Positions 32,332 through 33,168 of a stretch of 64,000 nt of DNA are shown here, one piece after another (within the stretch, counting starts at the first letter, position 1; each line of letters begins with the position of its first letter). The position numbers and the translations under genes are program-made. The DNA comes from Alphaproteobacteria bacterium. GTDB taxonomy: Bacteria > Pseudomonadota > Alphaproteobacteria > GCA-2731375. The stretch covers positions 62,001-126,000 of the forward strand of contig JADHTB010000005.1 of NCBI GenBank assembly GCA_016776605.1, read 5' to 3'. A model generated the notes under the pieces. That model was not told the DNA's origin. It saw only the letters and a program-made list of their open reading frames with translations, and did not search any database.

Positions 32332-32351
32332 TCTGAATGACGGAGATGGCA

Positions 32352-32819
32352 ATGGACGATTTCGTGGTGGCGCGTGTCGTCCATGTGCTGGGCGTGGTGC
32401 TGTGGATCGGTGGCGTTGCCTTTGTCACCCTGGTGCTGTTGCCTGGGTTGAAGCGGGTCCAGCCGCCCAGCGAACGCGTCGCCATGTTCGAACGTCTGGA
32501 GGGTGGCTTTGCCTGGCAGGCCCGTTTGACCACCCTGCTGACCGGCGCCTCGGGCTTTTATATGTTGTATGTCCTGGATGCCTGGGAGCGGTTTGCCGAC
32601 CCTGGCTATTGGTGGCTGCACGCGATGTCGGCGCTGTGGCTGATTTTTACGCTTATGCTGTTTGTTCTGGAGCCATTGGTCCTGCACAAATGGTTCCAAA
32701 GCCGGGCGGCCAGCCAGCCGGAGAGCACCCTGGCCTTGATCCAGCGGCTGCATTGGATATTGCTGACGGCCAGCCTGGTCACCGTGGCAGGCGCCGTCGC
32801 CGGGGTGCATGGCGGCTGA
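32352..32819 (+). CDS. CopD-like/DUF-type four-helix membrane protein
   Basis: Small inner-membrane protein of about 155 residues with four hydrophobic segments: ARVVHVLGVVLWIGGVAFV, TLLTGASGFYMLYVL, HAMSALWLIFTLMLFVLEP and ILLTASLVTVAGAVAGV. The His in the first segment (VVHVLGVVLWIGG) and the one in LHAMSALW resemble haem- or copper-binding positions of CopD/HemJ-like proteins. The start at 32352 follows GGAG with six bases; two upstream ATGs (32337, 32346) are alternatives. Its TGA stop is the left copy of the three-base duplication flanking the palindromic element at 32820. Confidence 0.75.
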   Translation: MDDFVVARVVHVLGVVLWIGGVAFVTLVLLPGLKRVQPPSERVAMFERLEGGFAWQARLTTLLTGASGFYMLYVLDAWERFADPGYWWLHAMSALWLIFTLMLFVLEPLVLHKWFQSRAASQPESTLALIQRLHWILLTASLVTVAGAVAGVHGG

Positions 32820-33078
32820 TACCACCCGGCGCTGATAGGGACCTACTGAGATCATCTCCGCGTGCCCTCGGTCAGGAGTGACGCCGCCAGCGATGTGGTG
32901 CATCGTCAAGACTTCAGGACGCATCCGAGGACGCGCGGAGGCGACCGAAACGGCGCCTTGGGCCAGCTTTCGGATGCGTCGCGCGCCCCTAACGATGCAC
33001 CACATCGCGTCGGTGCACGCTCCTACCCGAAAACCGGCCCAAGCCGTCTCAGTAGGTTCCTATCAGCGCCGGGTGGTA
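32820..33078. mobile_element. 259-bp palindromic MITE-like element
   Basis: Near-perfect long palindrome centred at 32949. The ends are 32-base inverted repeats (32820-32851 and 33047-33078, starting TACCACCCGGCGCTGATAGG) with one mismatch. Inner arms are coaxial: 17 bases at 32890-32906 / 32992-33008 (GCGATGTGGTGCATCGT) and 11 bases at 32918-32928 / 32970-32980. TGA directly precedes and follows the element, a possible 3-bp target duplication. It encodes no transposase and would need one in trans. ORFs read through it on both strands are mirror images (MWCIV...YQRRVV), so they are not counted as genes. Confidence 0.85.
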
Positions 33079-33168
33079 TGAGGGGCACGCCGAATGCCGT
33101 TGGTCATCGTGGAACAACCCACCCAACGCTGGCGCGTCAAGATGGTTCAATGATAATAATTACCGGAT

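Follow-up and report, generated by a model that had tools for sequence, protein, structure and literature searches.

Within the window, which is the whole 64,000-nucleotide stretch of DNA analysed here, a 259-bp quasi-palindrome occupies positions 32820 to 33078. Its outer inverted repeats are 32 bp long and differ by one mismatch. TGA stands directly on either side, at 32817-32819 and 33079-33081 (plus strand); the left one also serves as stop codon for the gene upstream (32337-32819). The original prediction had described the 259-bp length, the ends and the flanks as they are, as well as two further arm pairs sharing the centre of the element; one such pair lies at 32890-32928 and 32970-33008 with its centre at 32949. 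Its term "near-perfect palindrome" suits the outer 32 bp but not the whole 259 bp, which are 66% identical to their own reverse complement in ungapped comparison. Likewise, the left TGA is indeed a stop codon, but the name given to the gene, CopD-like, was not confirmed: NCBIfam yielded nothing for it, and Pfam only DUF4149, below the cut-off.

The ends of this type of element read TACCA...TGGTA, and those of the window copy TACCAC...GTGGTA. The left end (32820-32851, plus strand; TACCA...GATAGG.ACC) and the right end (33047-33078, plus strand) form the 5′ and 3′ sides of an outer stem, P1, as judged by comparison of the inverted repeats and by pair counts. Between them lie arm P2 (32852-32944, plus strand), a single hairpin module of about 93 nt; a small central hairpin, CCGAAACGG (32945-32953, plus strand); and arm P3 (32954-33046, minus strand), a second copy of the module that is inverted relative to P2. 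The arms were delimited by the fold alignment, by pair counts and by an arm model that had both of them in its training set; the central hairpin was delimited by the fold alignment and layout measurements. One strand of the P2 internal loop reads TCAGGAG in the window copy (32872-32878, plus strand) and GTAGGAG in nearly all other rows of an alignment of 35 copies, as placed by the alignments of elements and arms. In P3, the sequence and the arm alignment place GTAGGAG at 33020-33026 on the minus strand. Sequence and alignment also show the same tip, CGATG...CATCG, in both arms (P2, 32891-32905, plus strand; P3, 32993-33007, minus strand).

The predicted fold of the window copy as single-stranded DNA has an energy of -94.6 kcal/mol, compared with -50.9 ± 3.6 kcal/mol for 200 shuffled sequences (z = -12.2), and the RNA fold gave z = -13.9. 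The 20-nt end, with up to three mismatches allowed, occurs within the window only at the two ends of the element (mean of 0.00 in 100 shuffles). The three open frames that cross the element matched no Pfam or NCBIfam family at E 0.01, in agreement with the prediction that no transposase lies inside. An Rfam scan of the window, and of the element at eight further loci, gave no family at its gathering score, and the Rfam matches at the element scored far below it.

Copies and insertion sites

Searching the genome and its relatives for further copies, as had been proposed, recovered many of them. In the source genome (4.6 Mb in 44 contigs), the DNA query found one other long copy (223 bp, 94%), cut by a contig edge, together with partial copies. 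The end pattern with up to three mismatches gave 21 matches and a reversed-pattern control 3; a degenerate end pattern made for the relatives adds further end matches. The other copies inspected in this genome were one form of 134 bp, one of 156 bp and remnants that can be as short as 22 bp, and some of these shorter forms are still flanked by equal TNA triplets. Counting the source genome each time, DNA matches to the window element were found in 13 of 61 searched genomes and related copies in 10 of 11 genomes of the genus. Of the 15 genomes of the family, 11 contained the degenerate end pattern and none contained the reversed control; one genome of the set (G002) alone held 78 end matches. 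All copy counts are lower bounds, because many contigs of G000, G001 and G007 end in or beside these elements. An exact 20-mer of the ends, searched in named genomes, gave two matches that were taken as chance, one being coding and the other having no second end nearby.

Elements were collected from the retrieved loci with a script blind to the flanks. It gave 45 distinct ones, of which 43 are at least 80 bp long and have paired ends. Another element collection found 41, and the 45-element script lost three (L003, L066 and L114). Identical 3-bp flanks were present in 33 of the 42 copies having both flanks, against a mean of 13.4 and a maximum of 26 in 100,000 shuffles of the right flanks, in a sample that is not random because the loci were fetched by resemblance to the window copy, many of them from G002. 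The flanking triplet is TNA in 39 of 42 copies on the left and in 41 of 42 on the right, mostly TAA or TTA. A weaker context surrounds it (C before TNA in 22 of 42 copies, G after it in 22 of 43). Direct flanking repeats of 4, 5 or 6 bp were absent from all 42 copies. The 3-bp target duplication first proposed from the TGA flanks of a single copy is thus seen across the family, as TNA.

The site itself was compared in nine congeners. The end of the upstream gene could be recovered in eight of them, and all eight have an empty orthologous site: the gene ends in TGA (four congeners), TAA (two) or TAG (two), and other sequence follows directly. When the flanks of the window copy were joined with one TGA kept, the alignment ran through the junction in four of the eight congeners. 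The right flank at 33082-33117 (plus strand) matches sequence shortly behind the orthologous stop codon in the empty site of G007 (86% over 36 nt). The element thus came through the refuting test named with the original prediction (no second copy anywhere, and orthologous loci holding the same sequence without a TGA duplication), and it is mobile. That it might instead be an inherited palindromic intergenic sequence without mobility is barely conceivable. Such a sequence would suit the 9 of 42 copies that have unequal flanks, but the eight empty sites contradict it for the window copy, and the presence of copies at unrelated loci and the excess of identical flanks speak against it in general. 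A length of 259 bp without a transposase, terminal inverted repeats, a target duplication, repeated copies and empty sites are together the marks of a MITE.

In six of the eight congeners, what follows the upstream gene is a gene of which 33082-33117 holds only the first codons, as judged by eye. This gene begins MPLVIVE... in G007, and its remainder has been lost from the source genome. In G004 and G005 a transporter gene follows the upstream gene instead.

The window copy is inserted exactly at a stop codon, as had been noticed, and so are 15 of the 43 copies (17 of 45 when two copies of 42 to 48 bp are included). Stop codons make up 9 to 11% of all non-coding TNA sites. Among TNA sites up to 60 bp behind a gene, they make up 34% (TAA/TTA) or 28% (TGA/TCA), genes having been called with an in-house ORF picker weighted by GC3. 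The idea that stop codons are specially targeted was rejected, because the surplus vanishes against TNA sites just 3′ of genes. A stop codon is therefore an ordinary, harmless site, since TAA and TGA are themselves TNA triplets and the codon is intact again after the duplication.

Some copies depart from the usual form. Three loci of the source genome (L031, L037 and L039) hold 22-bp remnants of one form, one end plus TA, and by eye two of the three lie between equal TNA triplets; the recurrence suggests repeated deletion within the palindrome. At C37:105294-105336 of the same genome (L047/L048), a diverged 20-nt end occurs twice in direct orientation, 3 bp apart. A locus from a different family (G021, L261:1469-1626) carries a 158-bp TACCA element with a single arm within the end stem.

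The cloverleaf fold

To characterize the fold, 35 full-length copies of 257 to 286 bp were aligned (36 were listed, and L057 was left out). Their consensus fold is a cloverleaf, in which the 32-bp end stem P1 encloses an inverted pair of arms of about 93 nt, P2 and P3, with the tiny central hairpin between them. Half of the consensus pairs (50 of 100) are changed on both sides in some copies with pairing kept. In P1, 96.7% of cells are paired and 133 double-change cells were counted, compared with 39.3 ± 4.9 after shuffling; the corresponding values for the inner cloverleaf, counted directly with no prediction step, are 96.2% and 310, compared with 90.5 ± 9.2. When the pairs of the cloverleaf were slid along the alignment as a control, pairing dropped to 38 to 49%.

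The original prediction had proposed a single long hairpin into which the whole element can fold. This hairpin, the minimum-energy fold of the window sequence mapped on the alignment, was clearly beaten by the cloverleaf: its inner pairs, which join P2 to P3, are 82.8% paired, with 87 double-change cells compared with 42.9 ± 6.4 shuffled. The percentages lean to the cloverleaf, because it was derived from the same alignment on which it was scored, and the hairpin from the window sequence. The 35 copies nevertheless covary as a cloverleaf, and this is the fold that evolution keeps: the two sides of its stems change together between copies.

The ends behave in the same manner. Over 26 positions, the two ends of one element show 1.2 differences, compared with 5.8 for ends of different elements. 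TACCA, ATA and ACC are nearly fixed; positions 6 to 10, 12 to 13 and 19 to 20 are variable and mostly still matched, and position 21 is mismatched in 16 of 43 copies. Two copies from G002 (L084 and L086) have in common an extra GC-rich stretch of 25 bp in P3, at columns 225 to 249 of the 35-copy alignment.

Bacteria correct quasi-palindromes by template switching. The element could be an ordinary MITE in which quasi-palindrome correction in replication, a form of templated repair, keeps the arms matched, with an unselected fold and the cloverleaf as a by-product. We consider this a real possibility, though not a likely one. It would explain why neighbouring end positions 6 to 10 vary together with their partners, and why even the arm-to-arm pairing of P2 with P3 shows some excess of double changes. 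The 82.8% pairing of P2 with P3 argues against it, as the two arms have not been homogenised.

A second alternative is that the element acts as RNA, as a structured 3′-UTR or a small RNA (a stabiliser, processing site or terminator) made from the upstream gene. The position directly behind stop codons in 15 copies and the very stable RNA fold of the window copy are in its favor, and for GTAG and CGTC repeats a function at the RNA level has been proposed (PMC3733652). If the transcript were the functional form, G.U pairs should be tolerated in transcript orientation more readily than A.C mismatches. In 16 copies with a single gene reading in, for which gene contexts were transferred by hand, the counts of G.T and A.C were 9 and 8 in P1 and 24 and 26 in P2 and P3, or 33 and 34 over all stems. 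Furthermore, 11 of these copies are oriented against the gene and 5 with it, 8 of 33 copies lie between divergent genes, and no Rfam family reached its gathering score on the elements scanned. Function as RNA is therefore quite unlikely. Since transcripts have no excess of G.U, a reason at the level of DNA is favored, whether folded or extruded DNA in movement or templated repair.

Counted in the element's own orientation, G.T exceeds A.C in P2 (55 and 16) and falls short of it in P1 (15 and 23) and P3 (13 and 19). Several of the P2 G.T cells fall in few alignment columns. The P2 surplus would fit a strand-specific fold, and we count it against the explanation preferred below.

Arm pairs with other ends

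A second element family is present in the same genomes. Its ends read TAGAGC...GCTCTA, its layout is the same, and the 18 copies aligned, of 20 listed, are 262 to 264 bp long. It has 85 matches in the source genome compared with 37 for the window element, both strands counted, and 31 of its 100 consensus pairs show double changes.

A covariance model of the arm was built from 21 TACCA arms only; these were the TACCA arms among 36 non-redundant ones, with two of odd length left out. Of the 16 TAGAGC-type loci given to it, the model nevertheless matched all 16 in both arms and along its full 94 positions. Scans of wider draws, with stricter filters, found the arm in 11 of 190 genomes across the class, two of them of the same genus as the source genome, and in 3 of 398 genomes across the phylum, all three of the same class and one being the source genome, from a list that does not give the share of genomes outside the class. 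Two inverted arms occur in ten families (f1, f2, f8, f13, f54, f60, f65, f105, f122 and f153); in two more, f81 and f123, the model finds one arm per locus.

The arm pair is enclosed by at least six end sequences. TACCA ends were found in f1, f8 and f153; TAGAGC ends, with unlike continuations, in f1, f60 and f13; TAGTGTGGTG ends in f105; TAGTACCC or TAGCACCC ends in f2; TAGGAGCCTGTC ends in f65 and f122; and TAGTGCCCACTTTCACGG ends in f54. Eight of the ten families have ends other than TACCA, so the inverted arm pair is not tied to one set of ends or to one family within the class. For TAG-type ends the duplication seems to be limited to TA, a weak sign because TA is its own reverse complement.

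When arms of all end types were aligned, all 36 model pairs showed double changes, with 565 cells compared with 161 shuffled, in an alignment that was fitted to the arm model, included the TACCA arms and held seven rows that are the same arms read from the opposite strand. Majority residues common to the types are TAGGAGCG facing CGACGC around the internal loop and CGATG...CATCG at the tip. Between the two element families of one genome, co-evolution of the tip sequence was not clear by eye. The layout was measured in 24 elements with a simple extension rule. P2 spans 92 to 96 nt and P3 92 to 98 nt, except for three P3 arms of 80 to 87 nt; the centre spans 7 to 11 nt, except for two of 16 nt and one of 35 nt; and total lengths are 260 to 274 bp, except for one element of 288 bp and one whose outer stem was only partly found. 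The likeness of size and layout across very different sequences and end types, and the recurrence of the loop and tip residues across those types, are further arguments against templated repair as the keeper of the arms.

The search of plasmid records gave no match for the window element or for an element from G118, two records for the TAGAGC element and one for an element from G067. With the arm model at E 0.1, these records yielded two arms in Agrobacterium, one in Thalassospira and none in Sphingomonas. The plasmid NZ_CP045856.1 of Agrobacterium sp. MA01 carries a 261-bp TACCA element with TCA on both sides and one mismatch in its 32-bp ends; no gene is listed there in a gene table that is incomplete.

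A locus of G012 (L059) has an arm inside what appears to be a further end type, CACACTCTCC...GGAGAGTGTG, and one of its arms reached the model. At L267:1-51 of G067, Rfam recognised a fluoride riboswitch, cut at the end of the locus.

Mode of movement and comparison with known elements

IS5-group elements and their MITEs use TNA or YTAR targets, and the Tourist MITEs of eukaryotic PIF/Harbinger transposons make a 3-bp TNA (TWA) duplication. The TNA triplets that flank nearly all TACCA copies are of the kind targeted by the IS5 group, and IS5-group enzymes are a lead because of this target. Unlike in a MITE derived from that group, no IS5-type transposase with matching ends was found in the source genome or at PF13586 loci. 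The source genome has no PF01609, PF13586 or PF13359. PF13586 is present in 7 of 15 genomes, the source genome not among them, and PF13359 in 1 of 15, the distant G019. At the 19 PF13586 loci from other genomes, the flanks of about 1,500 bp contained no two TACCA ends facing each other, and two of these loci (L187 and L191) had lone loose end matches. Facing end pairs 350 to 4,000 bp apart were absent from 213 loci, mostly up to about 5 kb long. G118, an assembly of about 20 contigs rich in TAGTGTGGTG elements, gave 34 end matches that pair only at 264 bp or less, and by eye no transposase-like open frames were present at three lone ends. The autonomous relative with the same ends that the original prediction had sought was thus not found with these three Pfam families in fragmented assemblies.

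Taken together, these data indicate that the window feature is probably a non-autonomous element (MITE) of about 260 bp that is moved in trans and conserves the shape of its folded DNA. The enzyme would be a DDE transposase encoded elsewhere, cutting at the TACCA ends and inserting the element into TNA sites, with TWA preferred. The cloverleaf would matter as folded DNA, either an extruded cruciform or a folded single strand, rather than as RNA; for example, the fold could bring together the two ends of a short, stiff element of 260 bp.

A broader and more speculative reading, which we think rather unlikely, is a class-wide superfamily of mobile DNA defined by its shape (inverted arms of about 93 nt in a cloverleaf of about 260 bp) and by neither sequence nor ends, in which the folded strand or cruciform would be the substrate and exchangeable ends would lead to new transposases. 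Such a superfamily would include at least six end sequences and apparently two target types. Its model is the integron attC site, where the folded strand itself is the substrate. Because folding would pair the two ends into one double-stranded end, P1, positions that the enzyme does not read could drift but would have to stay paired.

The common view of MITEs is that they are decayed transposons with nothing but their ends to unite them. In the present elements, sequence and ends turn over across ten families of the class, yet the three-part fold and the narrow range of sizes persist. Three questions thereby become testable: whether folded DNA serves as a transposition substrate, how MITEs change from one transposase to another, and whether long palindromes are maintained by arm-to-arm repair or by selection. 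The arm covariance model can also be used to annotate unlabelled intergenic repeats in alphaproteobacteria.

The element has several counterparts among known repeats. Like other bacterial MITEs (Correia/NEMIS, ERIC, RUP and others; PMC2229807, PMC10969869), it is short and intergenic, with terminal inverted repeats, a target duplication and a strong fold. It differs from the MITEs reviewed in PMC2229807, given there as about 100 to 200 bp with long stem-loops, by its length of about 260 bp and its covariation-supported cloverleaf. It is also distinct in that its inner arm pair is shared by elements whose ends are of several unrelated kinds. No description of a cloverleaf MITE family was found in the open-access literature, a scope that leaves subscription journals mostly uncovered and does not prove absence.

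REP, BIME and GTAG- and CGTC-tagged palindromes, as described in PMC3733652, also consist of inverted hairpin pairs, prefer the 3′ ends of genes and have TAG- or GACG-like motifs beside their stems. The window element could be a REP-type composite, in which a RAYT tyrosine transposase would move an inverted pair of palindromes carrying GTAG and CGTC tags, the end stem being a secondary acquisition. Each arm has (G)TAGG on one side of its internal loop and GACGC on the other, which recalls these tags, and REPs form head-to-head dimers (PMC3733652). In contrast to REP-type palindromes as described there, the element has its own length, an end stem and a TNA duplication; the unit that duplicates the target is the whole TACCA-ended element of about 260 bp and not the arm, and the arms are about 93 nt long compared with 20 to 40 bp for REPs. 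The tags are also placed differently, since TAGGAG and GACGC are opposed in the internal loop instead of forming an unpaired tag at one end or at the foot of the hairpin. A REP composite is therefore very unlikely, and a MITE with a conserved folded shape remains the preferred reading.

The CcrM-associated intergenic repeats of Caulobacter (CIR), as described in PMC2229807, are alphaproteobacterial and intergenic like the window element and likewise have two arms with a linker and TA termini. CIR are about 110 bp long, without terminal inverted repeats, and are marked by GANTC (PMC2229807). By that description they are set apart from the present elements, whose full-length copies are 257 to 286 bp with 32-bp ends and which lack GANTC in 32 of 35 TACCA and 15 of 18 TAGAGC elements. 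Three loci of the source genome (L023, L024 and L047) contain another short palindromic repeat, approximately CTAGAGCAATTCC...GGAACAATTGCTCTA, that has GANTC sites and is perhaps CIR-like.
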